From NCBI RefSeq assembly GCF_009848505.1, contig NZ_WWDL01000003.1, positions 1 through 64,000 of the forward strand: a stretch of DNA of 64,000 nucleotides, written 5' to 3'. The notes beneath the pieces are model-generated. The model was not told the DNA's origin. It made no database searches and saw only the letters and a program-made list of their open reading frames with translations. Within the stretch, counting starts at the first letter, position 1; each line of letters begins with the position of its first letter. The DNA is from Muricoccus harenae (GTDB lineage: Bacteria; Pseudomonadota; Alphaproteobacteria; Acetobacterales; Acetobacteraceae). Below, in pieces: positions 9,879 to 27,368 of the stretch. A program made the position numbers and the translations under genes.

Positions 9879-10920
9879 TTACCGCATCGGCGGCGCGTAC
9901 TGAATGCCGCCATTTTTCCACAAATTGTTCATCCCGCGCTGCACGCCCATTGGCGTGATGTTGCGGTCCCACATCTCCGCGAAATTCCCAACCTGCTGCA
10001 CGATTCTCACCGCCCAATCCGGCTGCAACCCCAGCGACGCGCCCAGATCCCCTGTTGCCCCCATGAATCGCGGCACCTCCGAATTGGAACTGTCCCGGAA
10101 GTTGTCGATGTTCTTGCTCGTGATCCCCAGCTCCTCCGCGGTCAGCTGCGCGAAATGCGCCCAACGCACCACGTCGAAGAACTTGAAGTCCCCGTTTCGC
10201 ACCACGCTCCCCAGCGGCTCCTTCGAAATGATCTCCGGCAGCACCGTGTACAGCCCGGCATTCGACCCCTGCGCATAGCGGAACGAAGCCAGCGAGGACG
10301 CATCCGTCGTGAACGCATCGCACCGCCCGTTGATAAATGCTGCCCGCAGCTCCTCCAGATTCTCGATCACCAGAGGCGAGAACCGCATGTTGTGGACACG
10401 GAAGTAATCCGTCAGGTTCAGCTCCGTCGTCGAGCCGGGCTGCACGCAGACCGTCGCCCCGTCCAACCCCCGCACCGAGGTCACGCCCGACGCCGTCTTC
10501 ACCATGAAGCCGGTGCCGTCATAGAAATTGATGCTCGCGAATTCGAGCCCCAGCGACGCCTCCCGCCCCAGCGTCCAGGTCGTGTTCCGCACCAGCATGT
10601 CCACCTCGCCCGATTGCAGCGCGGTGAAGCGGTTCGTCGCCGTCGTGTTGATGAACCGAACCTTGTTCGCATCGCCCAGGATGGCCGCCGCCACGATGCG
10701 GCACCCATCCGCATCTAGCCCCCGCATCACCCCCCTGGCTGTCCGGCAGGCTGAACCCCGCCGTTACGCCGGCCACCCCGCAGAGCAACGCTCCCCGCGC
10801 CCGGATCGCCCCCACCATGTCCGAGGACGGCGCCTGCGCCGCCCCCTCCCCCACCAGCCCGCACAGCACCACGGCCCCCAGGGCCACGCGCCCGAAGGCG
10901 CCCCGCATCGCATCCAGCAT
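9879..10920 (-). pseudogene. General L-amino-acid ABC transporter binding protein (AapJ-like), frameshifted
   Basis: Two minus-strand frames together encode one AapJ/BztA-type receptor. Codons from ATG 10920 give a signal peptide (MLDAMRGAFGRVALGAVVLC... ending AAQA) and then GVTAGFSLPDSQG. The remainder, from MRGLDADGCRIVAAAILGDA onward, lies in the next frame. The break is at a run of six C (10730-10735). Removing one base restores LPDSQG-VMRGLDADGC and a 346-aa protein of normal family length. Past the break the protein is intact (FTALQSGEVDML, RNTTWTLGREAS, ITPMGVQRGMNNLW). No permease genes are adjacent. Either the gene is inactivated or the base is a homopolymer sequencing error. Confidence 0.85.
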
Positions 10921-11229
10921 CCAGTCGGCATCCCCGCTCGAGGTTCGAGATGCGCGTGACCGGCGGCCTCCTCCGGGCCATGTCCCTGGCCCACCGCCAG
11001 GCTAGCGACGCAGCCGCTCCGACGCCAACCTAACCGCGAAGCCGCGCAGCCCTAATCCACCCGCACCGCTGGCGAAACCGCCATCAGCCGCAAGAGCAGC
11101 GCGCAACCACGAACGGAACAGGACATGCCCGGCCTCCAAGCCGGCTGAAGCGCCAACATTATTCCCGCCCCGGACCGGACTTCCTCGCCATCTAGTCCAA
11201 CTTGGAAAGGCCTTGCCGCAACCCCCGCC
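10921..11229. other. Gene-free stretch upstream of the amino-acid receptor
   Basis: These 309 bases separate the receptor start from the small-protein copy A stop. I see only a weak inverted repeat (CCGGC/GCCGG near 11130) and no open frame with plausible codon use. The receptor promoter presumably lies here. Confidence 0.5.
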
Positions 11230-11499
11230 TCACCGCTTCACGAATTTGAAGAACCGGCTCGGCTGCCCATCCGCCGTATTGTCCTGATGCAGGAAAGCCA
11301 GCTTCCGGTCCTCGAATGTCTCAAAGAACGCCTTCCAGCTGATCTCCTCCAGCCGCTCCTCCTTCGGCCCGAAATCCACCCGCAGGATGCCCTCGCCATC
11401 CTCGCCCTCCGTGCCCGCCACCACGCTGGGCCGCCCGCCCCGCGCCTCGATCCACTGCCGGATCACCGCATGATCGGTCGTCGTGTTGCCCTGGCTCAT
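11230..11499 (-). CDS. Small conserved soluble protein, copy A (intact)
   Basis: This 89-aa protein begins MSQGNTTTDHAVIRQW and continues with GRPSVVAGTEG, EGILRVDFGPKE, ISWKAFFETFEDRKLAFLHQD and a basic C-terminus FFKFVKR. It belongs to a family of short acidic proteins of unknown function, some of which I recall being mislabelled as glucan branching enzymes. The ATG is favoured by GGAGG upstream. A frameshifted copy B (12980-13257) and a C-terminal relic C (14132-14206) lie nearby, all on the minus strand. Confidence 0.8.
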   Translation of the reverse strand: MSQGNTTTDHAVIRQWIEARGGRPSVVAGTEGEDGEGILRVDFGPKEERLEEISWKAFFETFEDRKLAFLHQDNTADGQPSRFFKFVKR

Positions 11500-11688
11500 C
11501 CGTTCCACCCTCCCGGCCGCCTCCTCGAAGCGGCGCCGACGCCCCGGGGAACACCCCGCCCACCCCGCCGTTGCCTCACAACCATGCGCGTCTGCCAGGC
11601 CCGCAGCCGCGCCCCACACCCCTATCAATTTGGACTCAAATTTCCTCCCCCAGCCCACCGCCTAGGCGAAACTCCAACGTTTGTAGCT

Positions 11689-11710
11689 GGCCACCAGTCT
11701 GGTGGTGGCC
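11689..11710. promoter_or_regulatory. Dyad symmetry 18 bases upstream of the RTX gene
   Basis: CCACCAG-T-CTGGTGG (11691-11705) is a perfect 7-1-7 dyad. In RNA, GGCCACCA (11689-11696) can pair with TGGTGGCC (11703-11710). It ends 18 bases before the RTX start codon, so it could be an operator or a translation-controlling hairpin. Both readings are inference. Confidence 0.5.
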
Positions 11711-11728
11711 CAAAATCGAGGAACCGCA

Positions 11729-12931
11729 ATGCCCACTCCGACCAACGGCAAGGACAGGCTCACCTACGGCGACGGCCATGACCGCGGCGGCGACGGCAAC
11801 CTCCACACCTTCATCGATCTCCTGGGCGGCAACGACGTCGTCTATGCCGGTGGCGGCAGTGACTTCTTCTCCGGAGGTGACGGCAAGGACCGCCTCTATG
11901 GCGAGGCCGGCGACGACGCCCTCTTCGGCGGCGCCGGCAGCGACAAGCTCTATGGCGGCGACGGGAAGGACTTCCTGAACGGCGGCAGCGAGGGCGAAGG
12001 CACCGACGAGGGCAAGGACGACCTCTACGGCGGCGCCGGCGACGACGTTGTCTTCGGCGGCGGCGGCAAGGATCGCCTCTGGGGCGATGAAGGCAACGAC
12101 CAGCTCGGCGGCGGCCTTGGCGACGACCGGCTCTGGGGCGGCATCGGCCATGACCAGGTAATGGGCGGCGAAGGCAAGGACATCCTCTACGGCGAGGATG
12201 GCGACGACACCCTCGACGGCGGCGCCGGCAACGACAAGCTCTATGGCGGCGACGGCATCGACATCATCTGGGGCGACAGCCGGATCGGCGGCGGCCCCGG
12301 CGGCAATGACACCATCGATGGCGGCGACGGCATCGACTATGCCGTCTTCCGTGGCAGCTTCTCCGACTTCAGCATCACCACGAACAGCGATGGCGTCACC
12401 ACCGTCCGGGACCTGCGCGCCACCTCGGAATTCGGAATGACCGATGGCAAGGACAGCCTGACGAATATCGAGCGCCTGGTCTTCGAGGACAGGACCATCT
12501 CCCTCTCTAACCCGGACCTGGACGCCACCTTCGCCGGCGCCAATACCGCCGACGTCGCCGATGGCAGCTTCACCGCCAATGCCTCGCTCGACCTGCCGGA
12601 CGACGTGGACATCTGGCGCGTCTCCCTTACTGCGGGCCAGACCGTCACGGCCTTCACCACCGCCGAAATGGTCAACCAGCCCCGCACCAACATCTCGGTC
12701 TATGACGCCAACGGCCAGTTCCTCGCCCTCAACTGGGACGACAACCAAGACGACCCGGACGAAGGCTTCCCCGACCTGAACCTGACCTTCACGGCACAGG
12801 AAACCGGCGACTACTACTTCGCCGTCGCGGGCTACGCCCACATCCCGACCGGCAGCGACGACCCGGCCGCCCCGAACTACTCCGGCTTCTCCGGCCAGAG
12901 CGGGGACTACATCTTCAACCTGACCGCCTGA
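11729..12931 (+). CDS. RTX calcium-binding repeat protein with C-terminal PPC domain
   Basis: This 400-aa acidic protein has no signal peptide. Residues from about 25 to 215 hold roughly fifteen RTX nonapeptides of GGxGxD type (GGDGKDRLYGEAGDD, GGAGNDKLYGGDG), which fold on Ca2+ into a parallel beta-roll after export. A linker with FRGSFSDFSITTNSDG follows, as in many RTX proteins. The C-terminal 130 residues resemble a bacterial pre-peptidase (PPC) domain (DVDIWRVSLTAGQTVTAF, GDYYFAVAGY). No protease or lipase domain is present, nor type I exporter genes. ATG 11729 is preceded by GAGGAA. It is probably secreted and may act as an adhesin or matrix protein. Confidence 0.88.
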   Translation: MPTPTNGKDRLTYGDGHDRGGDGNLHTFIDLLGGNDVVYAGGGSDFFSGGDGKDRLYGEAGDDALFGGAGSDKLYGGDGKDFLNGGSEGEGTDEGKDDLYGGAGDDVVFGGGGKDRLWGDEGNDQLGGGLGDDRLWGGIGHDQVMGGEGKDILYGEDGDDTLDGGAGNDKLYGGDGIDIIWGDSRIGGGPGGNDTIDGGDGIDYAVFRGSFSDFSITTNSDGVTTVRDLRATSEFGMTDGKDSLTNIERLVFEDRTISLSNPDLDATFAGANTADVADGSFTANASLDLPDDVDIWRVSLTAGQTVTAFTTAEMVNQPRTNISVYDANGQFLALNWDDNQDDPDEGFPDLNLTFTAQETGDYYFAVAGYAHIPTGSDDPAAPNYSGFSGQSGDYIFNLTA

Positions 12932-12934
12932 CGC

Positions 12935-12965
12935 AAAAATGGGCCGCCGGTTCCCCGGCGGCCCA
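12935..12965 (-). terminator. Strong terminator between RTX gene and copy B
   Basis: TGGGCCGCCGG (12940-12950) and CCGGCGGCCCA (12955-12965) form a perfect 11-bp stem with loop TTCC. On the minus strand it is followed by TTTTT, so it terminates copy B. It may also stop RTX transcripts from the other side. Confidence 0.85.
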
Positions 12966-12979
12966 CCAATCCGGCGCCC

Positions 12980-13257
12980 TCAGCGCCTCAGGGATGCGAA
13001 AAACCGGCTCACTTTTCGGTCCGCCGTCTTGTCCTGGTGCAGGAAGGCCAGCTTCCGGTCCTCGAAAGTCTGGAAGAACTTCTCCCAGGAAACCGCCTCC
13101 AGCCTGCCCTCCTTCGGCCCGAAATCCACGCGCAGGATGCCTTCGCCATCCCCGCCCTCGGTGCCCTTCACGACGCTTGGCCGCCGACCCCGCGCCTCGG
13201 TTCCTCGGTCCATTGCTTGATGATGTTGTGGTCCGTAGTCGTGTCGCCCTGGCTCAT
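12980..13257 (-). pseudogene. Small conserved protein, copy B, frameshifted by an 8-bp duplication
   Basis: From ATG 13257 the frame reads MSQGDTTTDHNIIKQWTE, matching copy A, and then shifts. The rest of the family sequence (RGRRPSVVKGTEG, ILRVDFGPKEGRLE, FEDRKLAFLHQDKTAD) continues in another frame to 12980. The break coincides with an 8-base tandem repeat (CCTCGGT at 13195-13201 and 13203-13209). Deleting one unit rejoins QWTEARGRRPSVV exactly. An ATG at 13213 could still start a 77-aa truncated product, but it lacks a clear ribosome site. Confidence 0.8.
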
Positions 13258-13401
13258 GACGCGACCTCTTGGGCGGCAGTGGGTCACATCGCGAAATTCC
13301 AGTGAATCAGGGTATCACCGCCTGTTAGTCTTCGATCCTCTGCCGGGGGCTGCAACACGCCCGCAGCCACCCGGCCCGCCTTCTGGACAGGAGGACGCGC
13401 C

Positions 13402-14151
13402 GTGGAGACCAGGATCGCAGAAGTCGCCGACGGTATCTTCAGGCTCTCGACCTTCGTGCCGGAGATCGCCCCACCCGCCGGATTCACCTTCAACCAGTTC
13501 CTCGTGCTCGGGGATGAACCCCTGCTCTTCCACACCGGGTTGCGGCGCATGTTCCCGCTGGTGCGGGACGCCGTGGCCCGGATCATCCCGCCGGAACGCC
13601 TGCGCTGGATTGCCTTCGGCCATTACGAGGCCGATGAATGCGGCGCCATGAACGAATGGCTCGCAGTGGCGCCGCATGCACATGTGGCGCACGGGCAAAC
13701 CGCCTGCCTCGTCTCGCTCAACGACATGGCCGATCGCGCTCCGCGGATTCTCTCGGATGGCGAAGTGATCCATATCGGGGACGGCCGGCGCCTTCGCTAT
13801 ATCGACACCCCCCACATCCCGCATGGCTGGGACGCCGGTGTCATGCTGGAGGAGGGCAGCGGCACCCTGCTCTGCGGCGACCTGTTCACTCAACTCGGGG
13901 ACGGCCCTGCCTTGACCGAGGGCGACGTGGTCGGGCCCGCCATCGCCGCCGAGGACCTCTTCCACTACTCCAGTCTGAACCCGGGCATGGGCGCGACGAT
14001 CCGCCGCCTCGCCGGGCTCTCGCCCCGGACACTTGCCCTGATGCACGGCCCTTCCTTCACCGGCGACGGAGCGGCGGCACTGCGCGCTCTGGCCGATGAC
14101 TACGACCGCCGCGTCCAGGCGGCTCTGGCCCTCAGCGCCTTACCGAGCTGA
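13402..14151 (+). CDS. MBL-fold protein of the flavodiiron/ODP oxygen-binding type
   Basis: This 249-aa protein has the di-iron ligand set of the beta-lactamase domain of flavodiiron proteins: GHYEADECG (HxExD), TPHIPHGWDAG, LLCGDLFTQLGD and LALMHGPSF. There is no flavodoxin domain, so it resembles stand-alone ODP oxygen or redox sensors. GTG 13402 is chosen for the AGGAGG seven bases upstream. The last 20 bases overlap an antisense relic of the small-protein family, so its C-terminus may be a junction product. Base composition is less C-skewed than neighbours, suggesting acquisition. Confidence 0.85.
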   Translation: METRIAEVADGIFRLSTFVPEIAPPAGFTFNQFLVLGDEPLLFHTGLRRMFPLVRDAVARIIPPERLRWIAFGHYEADECGAMNEWLAVAPHAHVAHGQTACLVSLNDMADRAPRILSDGEVIHIGDGRRLRYIDTPHIPHGWDAGVMLEEGSGTLLCGDLFTQLGDGPALTEGDVVGPAIAAEDLFHYSSLNPGMGATIRRLAGLSPRTLALMHGPSFTGDGAAALRALADDYDRRVQAALALSALPS

Positions 14152-14206
14152 TGAACCGACTCTCCTTCCCGTCCGACGTCTTGTCCTGATGCAGGAAGGC
14201 CAGCTG
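14132..14206 (-). pseudogene. Small conserved protein, copy C, C-terminal relic
   Basis: Read on the minus strand from 14206, the codons give QLAFLHQDKTSDGKESRF and then ISSVRR and a stop at 14132. This aligns with the last 24 residues of copies A and B (KLAFLHQDKTAD... FFASLRR). The N-terminal two thirds is absent. It overlaps the end of the MBL-fold gene by 20 bases. Confidence 0.7.
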
Positions 14207-14256
14207 CCAAGCCCGCCTATTGACTTTATTCCTATTTGTGGTTATCCTTACAAGCG

Positions 14257-14861
14257 ATGCCCCTCCCCCACGCCCCCCGCCTGACCCCACCCCGCCCCTT
14301 CTCCCCCCTCACCGACGACCAATGGGCCGCCCTCCTCCCCTACATCCTCCCCCGCGCCCCGCAGGGCCGCAAAATCGCCGATCTCCGCGCCCGCATGGAC
14401 GCCATCTTCAAACCACCGCCACCCACGCCCCCTGGCGCGAAGCCCCTCCCGCAGGCGCCAAACCCGAAACCATCGCCCGCTACTACCGTCGCCTCACCCA
14501 TGCCGGGCTTTGGGAACGCCTTCTCATCGCCCTGGCCGACGCCGCCCCCAAACACCCCCTCCGCAGCATCGAACACCTGATCGTCCGCGCCTGCCGCCGC
14601 GCCCACCGCCTGCGCGGCATGCCCTTCCTCGTCCTCATCCGCCGAATCGGCCTGCGCTCCGCCCTCCCCGGCCCGCCCTGGCTCCTCCCCGATCCCCTTT
14701 TGTCCGAAACCCTCTCCCGCGCCCCTCTCCCTCTCGGAATCCCGAAAACCCCGGAGGGAAAGCGCCGCCGCACCGATTACCTCAGGGCCCTGAAGCACCT
14801 CTTCCGCGCCGCCGAGGGCCGCGCCCGCATCCCCCGCTCCGTCCGCCTGGCCTGGCCCTGA
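14257..14861 (+). pseudogene. IS5-like transposase relic (frameshifted)
   Basis: From ATG 14257 one frame gives [20 protein letters not shown] and ARMDAIF, the opening of the DUF4096 / IS5 transposase N-domain. About base 14412 the match moves to another frame: [11 protein letters not shown], then [20 protein letters not shown] (the family's APWRDLP and [13 protein letters not shown]). The DDE catalytic region is missing. No terminal inverted repeats were found. The composition is extremely C-rich like its surroundings, so the insertion is old. It may have been a cause of the gap between purQ and purL. Confidence 0.65.
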
Positions 14862-14941
14862 GCCCCGCCATGCAACAGGCGCCCGCCTCCATGTCCCACG
14901 ATCCCCTGGACAAGCCGCGCGCCCCTGTTGACAAGGCGTCC

Positions 14942-17191
<2,250 letters not shown>

Positions 17192-17198
17192 CCCGGGC

Positions 17199-17229
17199 CG
17201 GGATCCCCTTCGCTTCATACGGGATCCCG
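17199..17229. repeat. Inverted repeat built from GGGATCCC palindromes
   Basis: CGGGATCCC (17199-17207) pairs with GGGATCCCG (17221-17229) around a 13-nt loop just after purL. A third copy, CGGGATCCCG, lies inside the next gene (17342-17351). There is no T tract, so it is a weak terminator candidate at best. Confidence 0.5.
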
Positions 17230-17293
17230 ACCACCCATTCACAACCGCCTCCGGAACGGGCAGAAACCTGCCTCGTTCTGAAGGTGCAAGATT

Positions 17294-17872
17294 ATGGCTC
17301 TTTCGCGTGGAACCGCGGCCGCCATCGTCCAGGTCGTCACGCGGGATCCCGAATCCCGCAAGGTCATCGACAGCCCGCTGGAGTACATCGGCGGCACCGG
17401 CTGGGCGGGCGGTTTCCGCAACACCGGCATGATCCTGGGCAATGCCATGTCGATCTTCGGCGGCCATATCGCGGCGGGCCAGCTCGCCCGGGTGGGCGAT
17501 TTCCAGGGCGCGGCGGCGGTCACCGAGGACACGCGCCGCACCTACGGCACGCTCGGCTCCATCGACCTGACGCCCGAGCAGGCCGCCCGGGTCTGCACCG
17601 GCATCGCGGCCGTCACTGCCAAGGCCATCACGGCCGCCGCCAAGGCTGCCCCCGGCACCAGCCTCTTCCTGGTCGCCGGCAGCGACAGCCAGGACCGCAT
17701 GGGCACCACCATCGCCCATACCGCCACCCTGGTGCGCATGAAGGACGGCAGCCGCTACGTCTTCGACTGGCACGCCACCCTCACCGCCTCCAACCCGATG
17801 CTCCACGCCTCCACCAAGGCCTTCGACGAGAACGAGGGCGTTCTCTTCACTGTCTTCCAGGAATTCGCCTGA
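17294..17872 (+). CDS. Conserved hypothetical protein between purL and bolA
   Basis: This 192-aa soluble protein matches no family I recognise. It has a glycine-rich N-terminal half (EYIGGTGWAGGFRNTGMILG) and an alanine-rich helix (about residues 92-120) that includes a Cys. The C-terminal part reads TIAHTATLVRMKDGSRYVFD followed by WHATL. The His, DGSxYVxDW pattern faintly recalls transglutaminase or papain-like folds, but this is speculation. It lies 100 bases after purL on the same strand. Confidence 0.7.
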   Translation: MALSRGTAAAIVQVVTRDPESRKVIDSPLEYIGGTGWAGGFRNTGMILGNAMSIFGGHIAAGQLARVGDFQGAAAVTEDTRRTYGTLGSIDLTPEQAARVCTGIAAVTAKAITAAAKAAPGTSLFLVAGSDSQDRMGTTIAHTATLVRMKDGSRYVFDWHATLTASNPMLHASTKAFDENEGVLFTVFQEFA

Positions 17873-18006
17873 GCCGCGCCCCGCACGGCCTGCCTATGCG
17901 CCGGGGGACCCTTGGCGGCCATGAGGGAGTTCGCCATATCCTGAACCAACAGGCGGCGCGCGCGGGGCATCCTTCCCCCTGCACGCCACCAGAGAGGAAC
18001 CCCCGC

Positions 18007-18240
18007 ATGGCGATGCCCGCCGCCGAGATCGAGGCCCTGATCCGGGCCGCCCTCCCCGACGCCCACGTCACGATTGAGGACCTCGCCGGGGACGGCGACC
18101 ATTATGCCGCGACCGTCGTCTCCGCCGCCTTCCGGGGCCTGCCGCGCGTGAAGCAGCACCAGATCGTCTATGCGGCCCTCCAGGGCCGCATGGGCGGCGA
18201 GCTCCACGCCCTCGCCCTGCAAACCTCCGCCCCCGAGTGA
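18007..18240 (+). CDS. bolA: BolA family protein
   Basis: This 77-aa protein has the BolA fold features: an N-terminal helix ([20 protein letters not shown]), [12 protein letters not shown], and the [12 protein letters not shown] segment with the conserved His that can ligate a shared [2Fe-2S] cluster. BolA pairs with CGFS glutaredoxins in Fe-S and iron handling. The partner gene grxD follows after 14 bases, so the two are probably co-expressed. Confidence 0.92.
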
Positions 18241-18254
18241 CAGGAGCCCGCCCC

Positions 18255-18596
18255 ATGACCGACAACCCCGTTTTCCAGCAGATCCAGTCCGAGATCGACG
18301 CCAGCCCCGTGACCCTCTTCATGAAGGGCACGCCGGTCTTCCCCCAGTGCGGCTTCTCCGCCCGCGTGGTGCAGATCCTCTCCCATATGGGCGTCCCCTT
18401 CCGGGGCGTGAACGTGCTGGAGAACATGGAGATCCGCGAAGGGATCAAGGCCTTCTCCAACTGGCCGACCATCCCCCAGCTCTATGTGAAGGGCGAGTTC
18501 GTCGGCGGCTGCGACATCGTCACCGAGATGTTCCAGTCCGGCGAGCTGGCCACCCTCCTCACCGAGAACGGCGTCCACCACACCCAGGCGGCCTGA
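18255..18596 (+). CDS. grxD: Monothiol glutaredoxin, Grx4 family
   Basis: This 113-aa protein has [20 protein letters not shown] with the single-cysteine CGFS site, followed by [20 protein letters not shown], the glutathione-binding region. Such proteins carry [2Fe-2S] clusters with BolA. ATG 18255 is preferred over a codon six residues earlier because CAGGAG precedes it and the family start [10 protein letters not shown] follows. Confidence 0.95.
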
Positions 18597-18615
18597 CGCC
18601 GGGACAGCGGGCCGC

Positions 18616-19881
18616 GTGAGCCCCAAGGACTTCCCGGACGATCCCCCGCCCGGGGAGTCCCTGCCGAGCCTGGCCAGCGCCTCCTGGAAGGTCGCGCTGG
18701 CCGTCACCCTGCTGATGCAGACGGTGGCGGCCTTCCTTAATCAGTGCGTCCCGGTCCTGGCGCCCCTCCTGACCGGCAGCGCCGGCCTGCCGCCCGAGGC
18801 CGCCGGCCATCTCTCCGCCCTGTCCACCCTCGGCACCCTCGCCTTCCTCACCATCGGCAATCCCCTCCTGGCCCGTTTCGGCCCGGTGCGGACCCTGCAA
18901 TGCGGCGCCCTGGCCGCCGCCGCCGGTCTCGCCATGGCGGCGTCGGGCGGGATGGCCGCACTGGCGCTGGCAGCCTTCCTGGTCGGCATCGGCTACGGCC
19001 CCACCCCGCCCGCCGGCAGCCGCATCTTGGCGGCCACGGCGCCGCCGCGGCACCGCTCACTCATCTTTTCCGTCAAGCAGGCCGGCGCTCCCCTCGGGGG
19101 CGTGCTGGCGGGGCTGCTGATCGCGCCCGTGGCGGTCGCGCTGGGTTGGCCGGCGGCGATTGCCCTCGCGGTCGGAATCGCGGCGGCGGCGGCCGCGGCA
19201 ATCCAGCCCAGCCGCGCCATGCTGGACGTGGAGCGGGAGCCGGCGCGGGCGATCCATCCGCGGGCGCTGCTGGGGCGGGGTAATCTGGTCGGCCCCTTCG
19301 CGGCACTGCGGCTGCATCCGCTGCTGCCGCCGCTGACCTGGCTCGCCTGCTCCCTCGCCACGGTGCAGGGCTGCTTCTTCGCCTTCGCGGTGACCTGGCT
19401 GACCGAGACCCGGGGGCTCAGCCTCGTGCAGGCGGGTGCGGTCTTCGCGGCGATGCAGGCGGGCGGGGTGTTGGCGCGGATCGTGCTCGGCTGGATGGCG
19501 GACCGCACCGGCAACGGGGCGATGAACCTGATCGGCCAGGGGTTGGGCGGCGCGGCGGCGGTAACGCTCTTCGTGCTGCTGCCGCCGCTGGGCTTCGGAT
19601 GGACGCTGTTGCTCGGGCTGTTGGCGGGATCGCTGGTGGCGAGCTGGAACGGGATCTACCAGGCAGAGGTGGCGCGGCTCTCGCCGCCCGGGCGGATCGC
19701 CGAGGCGACCTCGGGCTCCACCACCCTGTGCTTCCTCGGCTACCTCATTCCGCCGGCGATTTTCGCGGGGCTGGTGACGGCCACGGGCAGCTGGCTGCTG
19801 CCGCAGCTTCTTGCGGCCGGGCAGCTGGTGGTGGTGGCCTTGGCGGTGCTGCCGAAGCTGCGGCGCGGCGGGAGTTCCTAG
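18616..19881 (+). CDS. Major facilitator superfamily permease
   Basis: This 421-aa protein has about twelve hydrophobic helices. The MFS motif-A-like loop [14 protein letters not shown] follows helix 2, and a related [10 protein letters not shown] lies in the second half. Start GTG 18616 lies 19 bases after the grxD stop. It resembles the cyanate/NimT-like or OFA carriers, but the substrate cannot be assigned. Base composition changes within this gene: the first third is C-rich and the rest G-rich on the plus strand. Confidence 0.85.
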
Positions 19882-19958
19882 CCCGCCTGGGCCCGGGCGG
19901 AATGGAAGATGGCCCGCACCTCCGCGTCGTCGAAGACGATCCTGGCTCCGGTGGTCAT
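19878..19958 (-). CDS. Short ORF coupled to the TspO-like gene
   Basis: An ATG at 19958 overlaps the stop of the TspO-like gene by four bases (ATGA) and opens a 26-codon frame ending at 19878: MTTGARIVFDDAEVRAIF, then HSARAQAG. The overlap suggests coupling. The peptide is too short to assign and could be the remains of a longer gene cut by the neighbouring MFS gene. Confidence 0.35.
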   Translation of the reverse strand: MTTGARIVFDDAEVRAIFHSARAQAG

Positions 19959-20731
19959 GCAGCGCTGGGGGCGGCGCGGCGACGTTGCCAGGCGACGGCG
20001 ATGACCAGGGCCAGCATGACGGCGGCGGTCAGGGCGGCGGGGATGTTCACCTGGTTCACGCCAAGATTGGCCGCGACGACGCCGATAAGGGCCCAGGCCA
20101 GGGCGGCGGCGAACCAGGCGGCGTCGCGGTTCAGTAGCCAGATGATGGCGGCCGCCGCGCCGCCAGCGGCCAAGAGAATCACCACGGCGAAGAGCGTGGC
20201 GGCGAGGCCGTGCTCGGGCAGGATGTTCGCGTAGCGGGCGGCGCTGGAGAGGTTCACGAAGCTCGCGGCGGTGAGCCAGCCGGCCAGGAGCCCGGTGAGC
20301 GGGGTGACGATCCAGCGGGGACCGACGCCGGCCTCGGGCGTGTTGCGGGCCATGAAGAGGGCCGCCAGGGCGCAGGCGAGGCTGACGAGAATGATGGCGA
20401 AGAGGCCGAAGCCAACAGAGCCGGTGATCTGGGAGGTGACCTGCCAGATGGTGTTGGCGGCGAAGGCGCCGGCCAGCGGCCAGCCGGTGCGGCGGGCCAG
20501 GGCGCTCTCCCGATTGGCGGGGAGGAACTGCCAGATGCCATAGGCGGCGGCCAGGACGAAGATCAGGCTCCAGATGGAGAAAGCATAGCCGGCGGGCACC
20601 ACCGGGGTGCGGGAGGCGGCGGAGACGGCGCTCATGGAGGTGCCGATGCCGAGCGCCGGCAGGAAGGCGGTGGCGATCTGCACCCAGGGCAGGATAAGGC
20701 AGAGAAGGCGGCGGAACTGGTCCTGCGGCAT
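19955..20731 (-). CDS. TspO/MBR-like tryptophan-rich membrane protein
   Basis: This 258-aa protein has about seven to eight hydrophobic helices. The segment VPAGYAFSIWSLIFVLAAAY with GIWQFLPANRES resembles long TspO/MBR-related proteins (AFxIWxLIY...YxxYQ). Classical TspO has five helices and about 160 aa, so this is the extended form of unknown function. It is divergently separated from nothing: rpsD lies upstream on the same strand with a terminator between. Confidence 0.6.
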   Translation of the reverse strand: MPQDQFRRLLCLILPWVQIATAFLPALGIGTSMSAVSAASRTPVVPAGYAFSIWSLIFVLAAAYGIWQFLPANRESALARRTGWPLAGAFAANTIWQVTSQITGSVGFGLFAIILVSLACALAALFMARNTPEAGVGPRWIVTPLTGLLAGWLTAASFVNLSSAARYANILPEHGLAATLFAVVILLAAGGAAAAIIWLLNRDAAWFAAALAWALIGVVAANLGVNQVNIPAALTAAVMLALVIAVAWQRRRAAPSAA

Positions 20732-20759
20732 GTCGGCACAAATCCCCGGAAACAGGAAC

Positions 20760-20783
20760 GGCCGGAGGGTATTCCCTCCGGCC
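20760..20783 (-). terminator. rpsD terminator hairpin
   Basis: GGCCGGAGGG (20760-20769) and CCCTCCGGCC (20774-20783) form a perfect 10-bp stem with a 4-nt loop, 30 bases past the rpsD stop. The following minus-strand sequence (GTTCCTGTTTCC) is only moderately T-rich. Confidence 0.75.
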
Positions 20784-20813
20784 GTCCGGGCAACGCCGCA
20801 GATGGGCGCCAGG

Positions 20814-21431
20814 TTACCGCGAGTAGAACTCGACCACGAGGTTCGGTTCCATCTGCACCGGGTAGGGCACGTCCGACAGCTTCGGGGCGCGCACGAAGCT
20901 GCCCTTCATCTGGCGGTGGTCCACCTGGATGTATTCCGGCACGTCACGCTCGCCGGACTGGGCGGCGTCGAGCACGGCGGTCAGGCCCTTCGACTTCTCC
21001 TTCACCTCGATCACGTCGTTATCGCGCACGAGGTAGGAGGGGATGTTCACGCGCTTGCCGTTCACGGTGACATGGCCGTGGTTGACGAACTGGCGGGCGG
21101 CGAAGGGGGTGACCGCGAACTTCATGCGGTAGATGACCGCATCCAGGCGACGCTCGAGCAGTTCGATCAGGTTCTCGGAGGTGTCGCCCTTACGGCGCAC
21201 GGCCTCGTCATAGTACTTGCGGAACTGCTTCTCGCCGATGTTGCCGTAGTAGCCCTTGAGCTTCTGCTTGGCCATCAGCTGGATGCCGAAGTCGGTGGGC
21301 TTGTTCTTGCGGCGCTGGCCGTGCTGGCCGGGGCCATATTCGCGCTTGGCGATCGGGGACTTGGCGCGGCCCCAGAGGTTCACGCCGAGGCGGCGATTGA
21401 TCTTGTACTTGCTTTCCGCGCGCTTGGTCAT
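20814..21431 (-). CDS. rpsD: 30S ribosomal protein S4
   Basis: This 205-aa protein starts [20 protein letters not shown] and contains [34 protein letters not shown] and the S4 RNA-binding domain ([35 protein letters not shown]). The length is standard. S4 nucleates assembly of the 16S 5' domain. The start follows AAGGA at good spacing. It is a single gene rather than part of the alpha operon, as is usual in alphaproteobacteria. Confidence 0.98.
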
Positions 21432-21684
21432 GCGACGGGGTCCTTCATCATGCAGCCCGGGTTTGCGCCCCCACATTCGTGGTGTGGCTGGAACCCGTGT
21501 GTTGTCCCGGTAGGCCCCCGGCCGGATGGCTGGAGGCGGGCGCGCGCCTGGAGAGAGCCTGGGGCCCCTCAGCACGTCCACGTTCCCGGGAAGAGCCGGG
21601 CCGATAGGCGATGGAGCCAAGAATGTCAAATCCTGGCGGGAAGCTCGCTTGTCAAAGGCTCCGGGGGCCCGTAACCGGCGCGGC

Positions 21685-21903
21685 ATGGGACTTCGGCAAG
21701 ACATTCTCATCCTTGGGCTGACCGCCGGGGTAGTGGGGAGCCTGGTGGGCGGGCTGATGCTCGGCATCGGGATGGGCATGGTGACGCAAAACGTCCATGC
21801 GGGATGGATCCTGGTGCTGCCGGCGGCGCCGGTGGCCGGGCTGATCGGGAAATGGCTGGCAAAGCGGCTGCTGAAGCGACTGGACGCCGAGGGGCGCCTT
21901 TAG
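21685..21903 (+). CDS. Small two-helix membrane protein
   Basis: This 72-aa protein has two hydrophobic spans (about residues 7-32 and 40-58) and a basic tail [17 protein letters not shown]. It resembles DUF2798-type proteins in size and layout (inference). It stands alone 250 bases from rpsD, and the gap between them shows no other feature. Confidence 0.6.
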
Positions 21904-21912
21904 CGGCGGCCT

Positions 21913-22791
21913 TCAGCCGAGCCAGCGGTGGCGGCGGGCGGCCTGGATGAAGGCCGCCACGGCCGGGGAATGCGGCCGGCCCGGCATGGTGGCCAGGGCG
22001 ATCGTCCGCTCCACCGCCGGGTCGGACAGGGCGCGCTGGATCGTGCCGGGATGGGTGATCGAATGCTCGGGCATGAAGGCGAAGCCGAGATCGGCGGCGA
22101 CCATCGCCTGCACCCAATCCTCACGCTCCGAGCGGTAGCGGGCATAGAGCTCCACCCCGAGGTCGCCGCAGGCCGCGACCACGCGCTCGCGCATCTCGCA
22201 GGCCAGGCGGTCCACATAGGGCTGGCGTGACAGGTCGCGCAGCGTGAGGGCGGCGCGTTCCCTCAGCGGGTGGCCGGGGGGCAGCAGCACGACATAGCGT
22301 TCCGTGTAGAGCGGCTCGATCCGGCAGGCTTCGGCGGGGACATCCAGCGGGTTGAGGATGGCGGCATCGCTCTCGTCGGCCTCAAGCGCCGCGGTGAGCT
22401 CAACGGGGCGGCCCTCGCGGATCGCCACCTCGATGCCGGGATGGGCGCGCTCGAAATCCGAGAGGAAGCGCGCAAGCCGCACCGGGCCGAGAGTGGGCAT
22501 GACGCCGACGCGCACGGGGGACTGGCGGAGGAGGCGGAGGCTTTCGGCCGCGCTGCGCGCCGCATCGGCGCGCTCCAGCATTTCCGTGAGCAGCGGCTCC
22601 ATGCGCCGTCCGAGTTCGGTCAGGCGGAGCCTGTTGTGTTCGCGGTGAAAGAGCGGCCCGCCGAGATCCGCCTCCAGCTTCTTGAGCGCCGCCGTCAGGG
22701 CCGGCTGGGAGACGTGGCACTGTTCCGCAGCCCGCGTGAAGCTCAGGCTTCGCGCCGCGGCGATGAAATAGCGGACTTGGTGCATTTCCAT
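21913..22791 (-). CDS. LysR-family transcriptional regulator
   Basis: This 292-aa regulator has N-terminal HTH MHQVRYFIAAARSLSFTRAA, EQCHVSQPALTAALKKLE and ADLGGPLFHRE. A periplasmic-binding-like effector domain follows from about residue 90 (VRVGVMPTLGPVRLARFL). It resembles the group containing HcaR and CynR-type redox or aromatic regulators, but the effector is unknown. ATG 22791 is used; 22785 is an alternative. It is divergent from the DUF4242 gene, its likely target. Confidence 0.93.
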   Translation of the reverse strand: MEMHQVRYFIAAARSLSFTRAAEQCHVSQPALTAALKKLEADLGGPLFHREHNRLRLTELGRRMEPLLTEMLERADAARSAAESLRLLRQSPVRVGVMPTLGPVRLARFLSDFERAHPGIEVAIREGRPVELTAALEADESDAAILNPLDVPAEACRIEPLYTERYVVLLPPGHPLRERAALTLRDLSRQPYVDRLACEMRERVVAACGDLGVELYARYRSEREDWVQAMVAADLGFAFMPEHSITHPGTIQRALSDPAVERTIALATMPGRPHSPAVAAFIQAARRHRWLG

Positions 22792-22871
22792 GGCGCCCAA
22801 GCTTGGGGATCGTGCCAAGGCTGCGTCAACAGAATGGTTCCGGAACGGCACCGGACGGCCACAGGCGCCGT

Positions 22872-22885
22872 CTATGGGCGCATAG
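22872..22885. promoter_or_regulatory. Possible LysR operator
   Basis: CTATG-GGCG-CATAG is a perfect dyad in the 165-base gap between the divergent LysR and DUF4242 genes. It resembles LysR binding sites, though its T-N10-A spacing is one base short of the T-N11-A consensus. Confidence 0.4.
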
Positions 22886-22956
22886 GCAGAAGCTGTTTTC
22901 CGGCGGGCGGCGACGGGGCCAGCATGATGCGGTCCGGAGAGAAGGAGGTTGCCCCG

Positions 22957-23241
22957 ATGACGGTCTATGCGGTGGATCGGATGCTGCCCGGCATCACGAT
23001 GGAAGCCCTTGCGGGTGCGCAGGCGGCGGCAATTGGCGAGGCGGAGCGGAGCAGCGCGGAGGGGACGCCCGTGCGCTACCTGCGTTCGGTCTTCATGCCC
23101 GGGGATGCGCGCTGCCTCTGCCTGTTCGAGGCGGAGAGCGCGGATGCGGTGCGGCGGGTGAACGACCGCGCCGCCTTGCCCTACTCCGCAATTTCTGAGG
23201 CGATGGACCTGCCGAACCCATCCGCGGCGCGGGCTGGCTGA
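22957..23241 (+). CDS. DUF4242 (SCO4226-like) small protein
   Basis: This 94-aa protein reads YAVDRMLPGITMEALAGAQA, then VRYLRSVFMPGDARCLCLFE and AESADAVRRVNDRAALPYSA. That is the ferredoxin-like fold of DUF4242, where a Streptomyces member binds nickel. The function is unknown. ATG 22957 follows AAGGAGG at eight bases; an earlier in-frame ATG lacks that. It is probably controlled by the divergent LysR regulator. Confidence 0.8.
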   Translation: MTVYAVDRMLPGITMEALAGAQAAAIGEAERSSAEGTPVRYLRSVFMPGDARCLCLFEAESADAVRRVNDRAALPYSAISEAMDLPNPSAARAG

Positions 23242-23393
23242 CGCGTTCCCTGCGGCGCGTCGGCACGGTGCGGGCTGTTCCAATCGTTATCCGCCGTGCC
23301 GCCGGCGCAGGCCGGCGGGCCGTTGTCTTACCGCGAGCTCATGGCCTAGCCTCCCACGGAAACGGCGCACAAGCGCCGCTGAGGAGGAAGTCA

Positions 23394-24608
23394 ATGGCGT
23401 CCGCAATCCTGTCGCGCTCGACCCTAGCGGGCGCGCTCAGCCTCGCTTTCTGCCTGCCCGCCTTGGCGCAGCAGCCTGCCTCCCCGCCCTCCTGGGCGCA
23501 GGGCCGTTCGGCGGACCAGGCGACCAGTCCCCTCGCCCCGCATGCGCCGCGGCTGACGGCGACACCCGTCGATCGCATTCCTGTCGATGCCATCCGGGTG
23601 CCGCAGGGCTTCAAGGCGGAGCTCTGGGCCTCCGGCATGCCGGGCGCGCGCATGATGGCGCGCGGCGACGATGGGACGGTCTATGTCGGCACGCGCACGA
23701 TCGGGCGCGTCTATGCGGTGAAGGAGGAGGGCGGCACGCGCACCCCGCGGGTGCTGGCGCAGCGGCTGGACCAGCCGAACGGCGTGGCGGTGCGCGACGG
23801 CTCGCTCTACGTCATCGCGATCAGCAAGGTGCTGCGCTACGACAATATCGCGCAGAACCCGAATGCCGAGCCGGTGGAGCTGACCGCGGCCTTCAACCTG
23901 CCGACCGAGGCGCATCACGGCTGGAAGTTCGCGGCCTTCGGTCCGGACGGCAAGCTGTACATGAATATCGGCGTGCCCTGTAACGTCTGCACCTTCGACG
24001 AGAACCGGCATGCGCTGATCGTGCGCTACAACCCGGACGGCTCGGGCCGCGAGGTGGTCGGGCATGGGGTGCGCAACTCGGTGGGCTTCGACTGGCGGCC
24101 GGGGACGAACGTGCTCTATGCCAGCAACAATGCGCGCGACTGGGCGGGCAACGACACGCCGGAGGACACGCTGCACCGGCTGACGCGGGCTGGCGAGCAC
24201 CATGGCTTCCCCTATTGCTCCGGCGCGGCGTGGCAGGATCCGGGGCATACGGGGCGGAAGTGCTCGGAGTTCCCGGCGCCGGTCGCGCTGCTCGGGCCCC
24301 ACACGGCCCCGCTGGGGATGCGCTTCTACACCGGCACGATGTTCCCCGAGGCCTATCGCGGCCGAGCCTTTGTTGCGCGCCACGGGTCCTGGAACCGCGA
24401 TGCGAAGAGCGGCTTCGACGTGGTGACGGTGGCGCTGAACGAGGATGGCTCGCAGGGTACGGTGGAACCCTTCCTGACCGGGCTGCTCGACAGCGGCGAC
24501 AACAGCTTCAAGGGGCGGCCGACCGATGTGCTGATGCTGCCGGATGGTTCGATGCTGGTCTCCGACGAGCATAACGGCGCGATCTACCGCATCTCCTACC
24601 AGCGGTGA
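23394..24608 (+). CDS. PQQ-type sorbosone/glucose dehydrogenase (beta-propeller)
   Basis: This 404-aa periplasmic protein has a signal peptide (LAGALSLAFCLPALAQ) and a six-blade propeller of the L-sorbosone dehydrogenase / soluble GDH type. Landmarks are IRVPQGFKAELWASG, LDQPNGVAVRDGSLYV, EAHHGWKFAAFGPDGKLYMN, GVPCNVCTFDENR, GVRNSVGFDW and FVARHGSWNRD. It should oxidise a sugar or aldehyde using PQQ, which the convergent pqq operon makes. GAGGAGGAAG precedes ATG 23394. The cytochrome gene downstream overlaps its stop, so the pair is probably a dehydrogenase and its electron acceptor. Confidence 0.9.
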   Translation: MASAILSRSTLAGALSLAFCLPALAQQPASPPSWAQGRSADQATSPLAPHAPRLTATPVDRIPVDAIRVPQGFKAELWASGMPGARMMARGDDGTVYVGTRTIGRVYAVKEEGGTRTPRVLAQRLDQPNGVAVRDGSLYVIAISKVLRYDNIAQNPNAEPVELTAAFNLPTEAHHGWKFAAFGPDGKLYMNIGVPCNVCTFDENRHALIVRYNPDGSGREVVGHGVRNSVGFDWRPGTNVLYASNNARDWAGNDTPEDTLHRLTRAGEHHGFPYCSGAAWQDPGHTGRKCSEFPAPVALLGPHTAPLGMRFYTGTMFPEAYRGRAFVARHGSWNRDAKSGFDVVTVALNEDGSQGTVEPFLTGLLDSGDNSFKGRPTDVLMLPDGSMLVSDEHNGAIYRISYQR

Positions 24609-25249
24609 GGGGTCTGCATTCTTCGATGCTGAAGTCTGTAATGTTGAAGTCTGTAATGTTGAAGTCTGTTCTGGGGGGGCTGGCGCTGGTTGCGCTGGCC
24701 TCTTCCTTTTCCACGGCGCGCGCGCAGGACGCGGCGCGGGGCGCGGCGCTGGCGGCGGAGCGCAATTGCGGGGCCTGCCACGGTGAGCGCGGCGTTTCGG
24801 CGATGCAGGACATCCCATCGCTTGCGGGACAGCAGCGGGAGTTCATCGCATTGCAATTGGTGCTGTTCCGCGAAGGGCTGCGCGACGTGCCGCCGATGCT
24901 GGCGGCGGCGGAGGGGCTGACCGACGAGCAGGTGGAGGATCTGGGGGCGTATTTCGCCTCCCTGCCCCATTCGCCGCCGGAGGACCGGGCGCGGCGGAAT
25001 GTGGGCGCCTATAACAACGGCGCGGCGCTGGCGAACCGGCTGCGTTGCGGCGTGTGCCACCTGCCGACGCTGGTTGGACAGAACCAGGTGCCGCATATCG
25101 CGGGGCAGCGGGAGGACTTCCTAGCTTCGACGCTGCGGGCCTATCGCGACGACCAGCGGCGCGGGTCTGACACGCAGATGAATGGCGTGGTGCAGGGGCT
25201 GAGCAACGCGCAGATCGCGGCGATCGCGCATTACGTGTCGCAGCGCTAG
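24605..25249 (+). CDS. Dihaem cytochrome c, partner of the PQQ dehydrogenase
   Basis: This protein of up to 214 aa has a signal peptide ending ARAQ and two CxxCH haem sites (CGACH, CGVCH), each in a class I cytochrome c domain with a distal Met region. GTG 24605 overlaps the preceding stop. The coding start is ambiguous because three ATGs at 24626, 24641 and 24656 lie in tandem 15-base repeats, each encoding MLKSV. It would pass electrons from the dehydrogenase to the respiratory chain in the periplasm. It converges on pqqE with a six-base gap. Confidence 0.92.
   Translation: MRGLHSSMLKSVMLKSVMLKSVLGGLALVALASSFSTARAQDAARGAALAAERNCGACHGERGVSAMQDIPSLAGQQREFIALQLVLFREGLRDVPPMLAAAEGLTDEQVEDLGAYFASLPHSPPEDRARRNVGAYNNGAALANRLRCGVCHLPTLVGQNQVPHIAGQREDFLASTLRAYRDDQRRGSDTQMNGVVQGLSNAQIAAIAHYVSQR
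24626..24670 (+). repeat. Three tandem 15-base repeats, each with an ATG
   Basis: ATGCTGAAGTCTGTA, ATGTTGAAGTCTGTA and ATGTTGAAGTCTGTT lie end to end in frame and give MLKSV three times at the start of the cytochrome signal peptide. Copies 2 and 3 differ only in the last base. Confidence 0.9.
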
Positions 25250-25255
25250 GGAAGC

Positions 25256-26362
25256 TCAGGCCTCCGCGATGGAGGGGCGCTTCATTTCCCGGTAGATGAA
25301 ATCCGTGCCGGCGACCGCCGCTTCCTGGACCGCCAGGTCCAGGAGGTGGTGATGCGGGGAGAGGGCGCAGGCGGGGTCGGTGCTGGCGGCGTCTCCGGTG
25401 AGGGCGAAGGCCTGGCAGCGGCAGCCGCCCCAATCCTGTTCGCGGCGGTCGCAGCCGCGGCAGGGTTCGGGCATCCACCCCGTGCCGCGGAAGCGCTGGA
25501 AGGCTTCCGAATGGTTCCAGATCTCGGCGAGGGATGCGTTGCGGACATCCGGGAAGTCGAAGCCGGGGAGGCTTCCGGCGGCGTGGCAGGGCAGCGCGCG
25601 GCCGGCCGGGGAGACGGCGATGAAGGAGCGGCCCCAGCCGCCCATGCAGGCCTTGGGGCGCTTCGCATGGTAGTCGGGGACGACATAGTCGATGACAAGG
25701 CGGCCCTGGTGTGCGGCGCGGGCGGCGGTGACGGTTTGGGTGGCGGCGTCGAGCTGCACGCGGCTGGGAAGCAGGGCGTCGCGGTTACGCAGGGCCCAGC
25801 CGTAATATTGCACATGCGCGATTTCGAGGCGCGCGGCGCCGAGGGTGAGCGCGAGCTCGATGAGATCCGGCAGGCGGTCGAGATTTTGGCGATGGACGAC
25901 GGCGTTCAGCGTCAGCGGCAGGCCGGCGGCATGGACGTGCTCGGCGAAGCGGAGCTTGCGGGCGTGGCCGCCTCGCATGCCGCCGATGCGGTCGGCGGAG
26001 GTTTCTTCGGCGTCCTGGACGGAGAGCTGGACGTGGTCGAGACCGGCTTTCGTTAGGGTTGAGAGGCGTTCGGCATCGAGCAGCACGCCGGAGGTGATGA
26101 GATTGCTGTAGAGGCCGGCTGCGGCGGCGTGGGCGACGATTTCGGGCAGGTCGCGGCGGGCGGCGGGTTCGCCGCCCGAGAGATGGAGTTGCAGGACGCC
26201 CAGCGCCGCTGCTTCGCGGAAGACGCGGCCCCAGGTGGCGGCATCCAGTTCCGCGGAGGCGCGGGAGAGCTCGGTGGGGTTCGAGCAATAGGGGCAGCGC
26301 AGGGGGCAGCGATGCGTCAGCTCCGCCAACAGGCCGAGGGGTGGCGGAGGCGCTGCGGTCAT
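25256..26362 (-). CDS. pqqE: PQQ biosynthesis radical SAM enzyme PqqE
   Basis: This 368-aa enzyme makes the carbon-carbon bond between Glu and Tyr of PqqA. The radical SAM motif is TELTHRCPLRCPYCSNPTE-like here (LTHRCPLRCPYCSNP, CxxxCxxC). A SPASM domain with auxiliary-cluster cysteines lies at the end (KACMGGWG, LPCHAA, MPEPCRGCDRREQDWGGCRC). ATG 26362 overlaps the pqqD stop by four bases. Longer in-frame codons upstream are inside pqqD and pqqC. It is the last gene of pqqABCDE. Confidence 0.97.
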   Translation of the reverse strand: MTAAPPPPLGLLAELTHRCPLRCPYCSNPTELSRASAELDAATWGRVFREAAALGVLQLHLSGGEPAARRDLPEIVAHAAAAGLYSNLITSGVLLDAERLSTLTKAGLDHVQLSVQDAEETSADRIGGMRGGHARKLRFAEHVHAAGLPLTLNAVVHRQNLDRLPDLIELALTLGAARLEIAHVQYYGWALRNRDALLPSRVQLDAATQTVTAARAAHQGRLVIDYVVPDYHAKRPKACMGGWGRSFIAVSPAGRALPCHAAGSLPGFDFPDVRNASLAEIWNHSEAFQRFRGTGWMPEPCRGCDRREQDWGGCRCQAFALTGDAASTDPACALSPHHHLLDLAVQEAAVAGTDFIYREMKRPSIAEA

Positions 26363-26637
26363 GACGTGACGACGCCCTTGGTGGCGAGGTCGCGCAGCAG
26401 GGCGAGGACATCGGTGGCGATCGCGTCGCGCGGGGCATCGAAGCGGCCGGCGAGGTCGTCCACGATGACATCGACGCTGCGGGTGCCGTCGAGAAGACGG
26501 AGGATTTCGAGCGCGATCTCGTCCGGAACGAAGAGGCGCTCGGGGCCGACCACGACCCAGCGCGCGCGCGCCTGGTCCTCGCGCAGCCGCATGCCGCGGG
26601 CGAAGCGCGGGATGGTGGTGGGCTCGATCGCGGTCAT
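26359..26637 (-). CDS. pqqD: PqqA chaperone PqqD
   Basis: This 92-aa peptide chaperone presents PqqA to PqqE. It has PRFARGMRLREDQARARWVV, GPERLFVPDEIALEILRLLD and VIVDDLAGRFDAPRDAIATD, the winged-helix RRE fold. ATG 26637 overlaps the pqqC stop by four bases and gives the normal length. The frame upstream is read inside pqqC and is discarded. Confidence 0.95.
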   Translation of the reverse strand: MTAIEPTTIPRFARGMRLREDQARARWVVVGPERLFVPDEIALEILRLLDGTRSVDVIVDDLAGRFDAPRDAIATDVLALLRDLATKGVVTS

Positions 26638-27368
26638 GGGATGCCCGGGACGAAGGCGCCGGGGGGCGGCAGGCCGGGGGAGACATAGGCGTGGTGCAGC
26701 GCGTCGAGCTGCGCCCAGAGCAGGTCGCATTTGAAGCGGAGGGCGTTGAGGACGAGTTCCTGCTCATCCCGCGTGCGGGCTTCGCGCGTGACGTAGTCGA
26801 GGGCGAAGGCGACGTCCTGCGGAGCCTGGGTCAGGCGCGGGGTGAAATAGGCGAGCGTGCCCTCATCCACGAAGTCATAGGCGCGGAGCATGCCGCTGAC
26901 ACGTTCGGAGATGATGGCGGGGGAGAACATCTCGGTCAGGGAGGAGGCGACGGCTTCCAGCACCGTACGCTCGCGGACGAAATGGACATAGGCGTCCACG
27001 GCGAAGCGTGTTGCGGGCAGGAGGCCTTGGAGGGAGGTGACGTAGTCGTCTTCCAGGCCGAGGCCGCTGGTGAGGCGGAGCCAGCGCTCGACGCCGCCGG
27101 GCTTGCTGCCGTCCCCGTCATGGTCCTCGAGGCGGCGGCGCCATTCGCGGCGGAGCGCGGTGGTGGGAAGGCGGGCGAGGAGCGTCGCGTCCTTCGCGGG
27201 GATGCTGGCCTGGTAGTAGTAGCGGTTGAGCGCCCAGGCCTGGACCTGGCCCTTGTTGAGCTTCCCGCCATGCAGCAGCCGGTGGAAGGGGTGGAGGTTG
27301 TGGTAGCGCTCGGCGCCGATGGCGCGGAGGCGGGCCTCAAGCTCATCGGGCGGCAAGAGGGCAGTCAC
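26634..27368 (-). CDS. pqqC: Pyrroloquinoline-quinone synthase PqqC
   Basis: This 244-aa cofactor-free oxidase carries out the last ring closure and oxidation of PQQ. The HxGxL region is NLHPFHRLLHGGKLNKGQVQ, followed by AWALNRYYYQASIPAKDA and RDEQELVLNALRFKCDLLW, all canonical PqqC. It overlaps pqqB and pqqD by four bases at each end. Confidence 0.97.
   Translation of the reverse strand: MTALLPPDELEARLRAIGAERYHNLHPFHRLLHGGKLNKGQVQAWALNRYYYQASIPAKDATLLARLPTTALRREWRRRLEDHDGDGSKPGGVERWLRLTSGLGLEDDYVTSLQGLLPATRFAVDAYVHFVRERTVLEAVASSLTEMFSPAIISERVSGMLRAYDFVDEGTLAYFTPRLTQAPQDVAFALDYVTREARTRDEQELVLNALRFKCDLLWAQLDALHHAYVSPGLPPPGAFVPGIP

Follow-up and report, generated by a model that had tools for sequence, protein, structure and literature searches.

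An origin-like GC-skew switch away from the main origin and dif in Muricoccus harenae and its relatives

Introduction

GC skew is the standard means of placing replication origins, termini and inversions from sequence only, and the question therefore arises as to what a sharp, origin-like change of skew inside an MFS permease gene of Muricoccus harenae stands for. A preliminary description based on hand counts put forward a replication origin, a reversed-skew terminus or the endpoint of an inversion. Its reading is partly supported: the flip near 19 kb is real, and the position of the main origin and dif, the strand of polar motifs and the gene order in related genomes each bear on what it may be. 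We found no earlier report of this switch in the open-access literature, as far as its available text goes.

Results

A single switch in the window

The window, by which we mean the whole stretch of 64,000 nucleotides analysed, is the start of a contig of 205,884 bases (G000:C52:1-64000) in a draft genome of 5.30 Mb and 126 contigs, and its main features are collected in Table 1. Plus-strand GC skew is below zero in 19/19 bins of 1 kb up to position 19,000 and above zero in 45/45 thereafter, so there is no second flip at this scale; the mean goes from -0.170 to +0.144 across the maximum-likelihood changepoint, with a gain of 455 log units. These bins bear out the earlier impression of a C-rich left and a G-rich right across the window, and they dispel the concern, raised at the same time, that the sign might not change near 19 kb or might flip repeatedly. 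Four of the five 60-base counts then given are exact; the stretch 19441-19500 holds 14 C rather than 13. Further right on the contig, the skew is +0.105 at 64001-84000, and four 5-kb samples taken as far as 195 kb are weakly positive.

The change runs from C to G on the plus strand, the polarity of a main origin, as had been described. Genes of both strands, called by a program blind to G versus C, carry the skew of their arm, the near-zero exceptions being a pair of minus genes at 2187-4185 and a single plus gene at 23268-24608. At fourfold sites, skew is -0.543 in plus and -0.322 in minus genes of the left arm, +0.293 and +0.434 respectively in the right arm, and -0.075 and +0.009 in other sampled contigs of this genome. 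The claim that the skew is not codon preference of one gene direction thus holds, since called genes and fourfold sites follow the arm on either strand. Genes do tend to face the switch (27 of the 33 called in the right arm are on the minus strand, and 10 of the 16 in the left arm, the MFS gene included, on the plus strand), and neither dnaA nor parAB is among the gene calls of the window.

Table 1. Features of the M. harenae window around the skew switch
Feature	Position	Strand	Basis or remark
Skew-switch changepoint, 5-log-unit interval	18924..19227		best 19,095
Left (purL) arm, C-rich plus strand	1..18615		1-kb bins, gene skew, fourfold sites
Right (rpsD) arm, G-rich plus strand	19882..64000		bins, gene skew, fourfold sites
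MFS permease gene containing the switch	18616..19881	+	Pfam MFS_1
grxD, monothiol glutaredoxin (Grx4 family)	18237..18596	+	TIGR00365 above cut-off
purL	15020..17191	+	NCBIfam equivalog PurL; match from about residue 171 of ORF 14510-17191
Gene of 258-aa protein, facing the MFS gene	19955..20731	-	no family match; five relatives aligned
rpsD	20814..21431	-	NCBIfam 30S ribosomal protein S4; match from about residue 117 of ORF 20814-21779

Around the switch, searches for a resident replication or transfer element gave negative results. No initiator gene was found near it; no relaxase or transfer gene was present among the window proteins searched, which are part of the ORFs; and comparison of 10 window proteins with PHROGs gave two matches, both of unknown function, and no phage- or plasmid-type replication gene. 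Between the end of purL and the end of the MFS gene, conservation in 11 genomes is confined to coding stretches. The 258-aa protein has no match in NCBIfam, Pfam or PHROGs. In relatives, inspection by eye showed ordinary-looking genes inserted between it and the MFS gene, apart from a resolvase-like and a ParB-like frame in G003.

Some genes of the left arm deserve a separate mention. The minus genes at 2187-4185 are almost free of skew and may be a recent arrival, the second of the pair scoring 278 bits to a PHROGs family of unknown function. The gene at 11702-12931 has the strongest third-position skew of the arm (-0.63) and encodes a 409-aa protein resembling calcium-binding RTX-repeat families, under all curated cut-offs shown. 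Between purL and grxD lies a 192-aa gene (17294-17872) without family match, in a stretch absent from ten aligned relatives.

Nature of the bias

On the outward strand the odds of G over C are raised 2.53-fold and those of T over A stand at 0.92. All 24 sequence contexts with enough counts shift, by 1.7-4.1 fold, and longer words are predicted by shorter ones; a shift so general in context points to mutation and not to selection of motifs. That codon preference or selection of polar motifs makes the skew finds some footing in a slight sense-strand preference for C outside the island, and is nevertheless highly improbable: as sole cause it is refuted by the shift on genes of both strands and in every sufficiently counted context. 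By our own reasoning, we hypothesize that AT-to-GC pressure combined with an extra loss of C on one strand can leave an excess of G with no excess of T.

The main origin and dif lie elsewhere

In the four finished relatives, G003, G011, G012 and G013, parB, parS-like sites (one mismatch allowed) and hemE lie at 4.12-4.16, 0.74-0.78, 1.64-1.66 and 4.75-4.90 Mb, respectively. Dif-like sites were located at 1.877 Mb in G003, at 2.910 Mb in G011 and at G000:C46:34,205 in M. harenae, flanked in these three by an MBL-fold gene on one side and a mazG-like gene on the other (both names assigned by eye), and a search for this gene pair led to the sites at about 4.555 Mb in G012 and 1.893 Mb in G013. 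Each arm from parB/hemE to dif measures 2.0-2.9 Mb in all four finished genomes, the origin marks lying roughly opposite dif. The distance between dif and the switch locus amounts to 37 kb in G013, 0.90 Mb in G012 and 1.12-1.14 Mb in both G003 and G011. In M. harenae, parB and hemE sit 87 kb apart on contig C74, dif on C46 and the switch on C52; the best parB match is on another contig than the switch locus in 10/10 further genomes. Neither of two E. coli-type dif patterns nor a dif profile found a site in the window. No DnaA-box match occurs from -1.5 to +3 kb of the grxD end in any of nine genomes, the count of DnaA boxes in the window is at chance level, and the lowest 100-bp G+C near the switch is 45-61% in the nine genomes scanned, with no AT-rich unwinding element. 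The RF00177 16S anchor gave no match in five genomes nor in a Caulobacter control, and the position of rRNA is accordingly uninformative. Second dif-like sites, of the TTCGATAATATTTNTTATGTNAA type, were seen at G003:C2:113454, G011:C2:387076 and G004:C14:73180; in G003 and G011 this type is on the second-largest replicon and the chromosome carries a variant.

The switch is thus neither the main origin nor the terminus. The C-to-G polarity, and the fact that the strongest skew seen in G012 is here, speak for a main origin; this reading is unsupported because parB, parS and hemE have other positions and the KOPS-like motif shows no divergence from the site (see below), and we hold it to be very improbable. 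A terminus in a lineage whose leading strands are C-rich, to which the facing genes and the nearness of dif in G013 lend some colour, is scarcely credible: dif is elsewhere in M. harenae and 0.9 to 1.14 Mb away in G012, G003 and G011, the KOPS-like motif does not converge, and the weak skew at the dif site of G013 has the usual sign, being positive before it in 8/9 samples and negative from it onward in 6/7.

A polar motif keeps its strand where composition flips

Octamer bias was scored over 1.52 Mb sampled outside the islands, strands being assigned by the parS/hemE-to-dif axis. The top two leading-biased octamers there are GGGGAGGG and GGGCAGGG, and leading bias is also found for GGGNAGGG, the E. 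coli KOPS consensus (132:66 in G012, 100:47 in G011, 139:42 in G003 and 153:53 in G013). In the ten switch-bearing genomes, GGGNAGGG lies on the minus strand at 130/142 sites of the left arm and 162/221 of the right arm, with a minus majority in 10/10 genomes and despite the G-rich plus strand of the right arm; these genomes are kin, and p-values from pooled motifs overstate their independence. Taken singly, the right arms of G012 and M. harenae give 63/82 and 32/43 on the minus strand. Among the 56 arrangements of six G, one A and one N, GGGNAGGG has the lowest plus:minus ratio in the right arm. Other G-rich octamers flip between arms, GGGGCGGG going from 7:167 to 107:33; GGGGAGGG keeps its polarity (1:56 and 2:60).

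The strand of the motif in G012 is constant from -165 to +350 kb, barring one single-site stretch, and even (4:5) in the furthest stretch at -205 kb. Gene places and the ori-dif axis imply that forks travel from rpsD towards purL in 4/4 finished genomes. Skew and motif agree at 3.08 and 3.30 Mb in G003, at 3.30 Mb in G011 and in the first 49.5 kb of C74 in M. harenae; of the regions sampled, it is in the right arm that they clearly disagree. Polar motifs do not diverge from the switch as they would from a main origin: the motif is constant where composition flips, so the direction of mutation and the direction of the chromosome part here. The rpsD-side counts in genomes without the MFS gene are small and of mixed direction (plus:minus 2:0 in G003, which is contrary, 1:3 in G011, 2:4 in G004 and 5:9 in G013).

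Conservation of the switch and shape of the island

The locus was examined in M. harenae and in all 14 other genomes of the genus retrieved, 45 other relatives lying outside the sample; ten Roseomonas/Pararoseomonas loci (L208-L217), very likely from the same assemblies, were not recounted. A change of sign is present in ten genomes (G000, G001, G002, G006-G010, G012 and G014). It falls at the MFS gene in 10 of the 11 genomes of the genus that bear this gene, the eleventh, G005, being inverted there; in all ten, the 5-log-unit interval overlaps the MFS gene and the best point is 0.5-1.7 kb past grxD. The switch of G008 is weak (-0.054/+0.051). Fourfold identity in the arms between M. harenae and the ten other MFS-bearing genomes is 0.63-0.80, with saturation at 0.46-0.67; these sites have covered roughly half to two-thirds of the distance to saturation, and the skew has therefore outlasted much substitution.

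G003 and G011, which lack the MFS gene, have a one-sided island of about -0.20 on the purL side and -0.01 to -0.02 on the other, and the edge lies inside the 258-aa gene. This placement is supported by G003 and G011 only: the profile of G004 is alike, but the changepoint that fits it best lies some 11.6 kb further to the left. G013 has no skew island. Among five more distant loci (L218-L222) no strong two-sided switch occurs; the weak cases are L219 (-0.134 on the left, where the stretch is very short, and +0.065) and L222 (-0.072 and +0.009).

The full profile of decay comes from one genome, G012, with near arms in nine further genomes. In G012 the skew jumps at the switch from about -0.15 to +0.185 and fades over about 200 kb, faster on the ori (rpsD) side (-0.11, -0.09, -0.06, -0.03 and -0.04 at 25, 45, 65, 85 and 125 kb) than on the purL side (+0.17, +0.15, +0.135, +0.12, +0.10 and +0.04 at 35, 55, 75, 115, 155 and 195 kb). 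Outside the island, one of 47 sampled stretches of G012 exceeds 0.1 (4 kb, 0.115), the median being 0.038; outside islands, this level is passed by 0/20 samples in G013, 0/18 in G011 and 2/26 in G003, and skew is weak, with medians of 0.013-0.038.

Other blocks are skewed as well. Strong skew is found at 3.08 and 3.30 Mb in G003. In M. harenae, C74:1-49.5 kb has a skew of -0.142 and an abrupt edge near 49,500 (L106), from about -0.2 to about 0, with hemE inside the block at 25.6 kb; sampled parts of contig C2 (143 kb; L101, L243, L244) show +0.125 on the plus strand and an undecided motif count of 4:3.

Gene order and the question of an inversion

The order and orientation of purL, grxD, the 258-aa gene and rpsD are kept in G013, G011 and G003, and beyond rpsD the order of the right arm differs between these genomes and the switch group. 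In window orientation, the plus strand of the 258-aa gene has a skew of +0.17 to +0.23 in most genomes that carry the switch, with R. pecuniae at +0.06; R. mucosa, G003 and G011 stand at -0.18 to -0.19. The inversion endpoint suggested in the preliminary description is held unlikely at the switch itself, since G013, which has no flip, has the same order across the site; the switch, by the same evidence, formed in place. An older joint just past rpsD is possible, because gene order differs there.

Such a joint leaves room for a fossil rearrangement, in which the right arm was once inverted, its slowly fading skew persists and its KOPS-like motifs have already been selected anew. Skew does move with DNA: in G005, which has the MFS gene, the segment right of it is inverted and skew remains negative. 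To read local skew inversions as inversions is also established practice, as set out in the available excerpts of PMC6220195. Against it, the changepoint is in the MFS gene, to the left of the 258-aa gene, at a place where G013, G011 and G003 all keep the same order; the 258-aa gene, though it has stayed in place, has positive skew in the switch group and negative skew in the one-sided group; and near-equal skew on both sides persists in ten diverged genomes. We consider a fossil inversion rather unlikely. As an observation apart, the inverted segment of G005:C45, which ends at the MFS gene, retains its old skew in the new orientation, and its motif count (3:3) is uninformative.

Discussion

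The sequences establish the switch and its conservation, the peak and decay of skew in G012, the independence from gene strand, the unchanged polarity of the motif and a position at neither ori nor dif. Our preferred explanation, to which we give somewhat less than even confidence, is that divergent and strand-asymmetric DNA synthesis comes from the switch, a secondary source of origin-like kind that is conserved and lies within one replichore. Divergent asymmetry that fades with distance, as is to be expected of a secondary origin, is found in G012 and in the near arms of nine more genomes. We infer that synthesis or strand exposure starts at the switch: the source would lie some 0.5-1.7 kb past grxD, with synthesis proceeding outward for some 100-200 kb, and the outward 5'-3' strand, as lagging-strand template, would stay single-stranded longer, lose C and become G-rich. 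Main forks from the hemE/parS origin would enter the locus on its rpsD side and leave it on its purL side, and the faster fade on the rpsD side is what this model predicts, because the competing main forks come from there. Divergent synthesis would in this way cover the polarity, the peak and decay, the faster fade toward ori, the one-sided islands of G003 and G011 and the unchanged motif. Priming by a break, an R-loop or another DnaA-independent route seems likelier than a DnaA origin, because no DnaA-box cluster or AT-rich element is seen and two sets of genes converge at the switch. Divergent synthesis does not in itself account for a bias several times as strong as usual. With ordinary medians of 0.013-0.038, extra forks of the usual type would not yield 0.15-0.2; synthesis would presumably need to be unusually asymmetric or frequent. 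The more specific proposal that Roseomonas in the wide sense has a DnaA-independent second replication source, fixed in one replichore and leaving an imprint of about 400 kb on a chromosome with a single ori-dif axis, we regard as possible and rather doubtful.

Several observations weigh against a secondary source. Near the switch there is no initiator, DnaA-box cluster, AT-rich element or phage or plasmid replication gene; the island is absent from G013 and confined to the purL side in G003 and G011, the best changepoint of G004 is elsewhere and G008 is weak; and a single source does not explain the other skewed blocks (G003 at 3.08 and 3.30 Mb, C74:1-49.5 kb and C2 in M. harenae). Another form of local outward strand exposure that involves no initiation, either strand transfer from a transfer origin or recurrent breakage and repair, is a less probable candidate that we nonetheless take seriously. 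The C-poor strand is the outward 5'-3' one, the polarity expected for a strand led out from a nick, the islands of G003 and G011 are one-sided, and the skew decays steeply with distance; this sits poorly with an island that is two-sided in ten genomes and with the lack of relaxase or transfer genes among the proteins searched, and plain resection to a 3' overhang would, we reason, expose the opposite strand.

At all events, a sharp, conserved, origin-like skew is found where ori, dif and polar motifs indicate no origin. Should the secondary source be true, a natural bacterial chromosome would have a fixed extra site of initiation, and this could be tested by read depth in culturable species. 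Should there be none, what still has to be found is a mutational process that treats the two strands unequally over some 200 kb.

Known systems offer partial parallels, cited here from the available excerpts of the respective papers. Nearest are run-off replication in Bartonella and oriC-independent replication in E. coli mutants. The former (PMC2697382), likewise alphaproteobacterial, is local and probably bidirectional and starts at a chromosomal non-origin site conserved in the genus, with a reach of hundreds of kb. That origin is regarded as derived from a phage, a helicase being located at the peak, and amplification was measured, whereas the switch described here is known from sequence asymmetry alone and no phage gene was found; the term GC skew is absent from that paper. 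In E. coli rnhA/recG mutants, oriC-independent stable replication is primed by R-loops (PMC4287441) and resembles our proposal in initiation away from oriC, without DnaA and primed by transcription; it differs in that it concerns mutants, and those excerpts describe no fixed conserved site or skew island. The polar octamers known as AIMS or KOPS (PMC5993296) are strand-biased and replichore-oriented as GGGNAGGG is, and explain the polarity of the motif only, GGGNAGGG not flipping where composition flips. Finally, the local GC-skew inversions of PMC6220195 are alike in that skew reverses inside a replichore, as in the right arm against the KOPS-like motif; the difference is that relatives share the same gene order at our switch, and that the reversed arm has its peak there and then fades.
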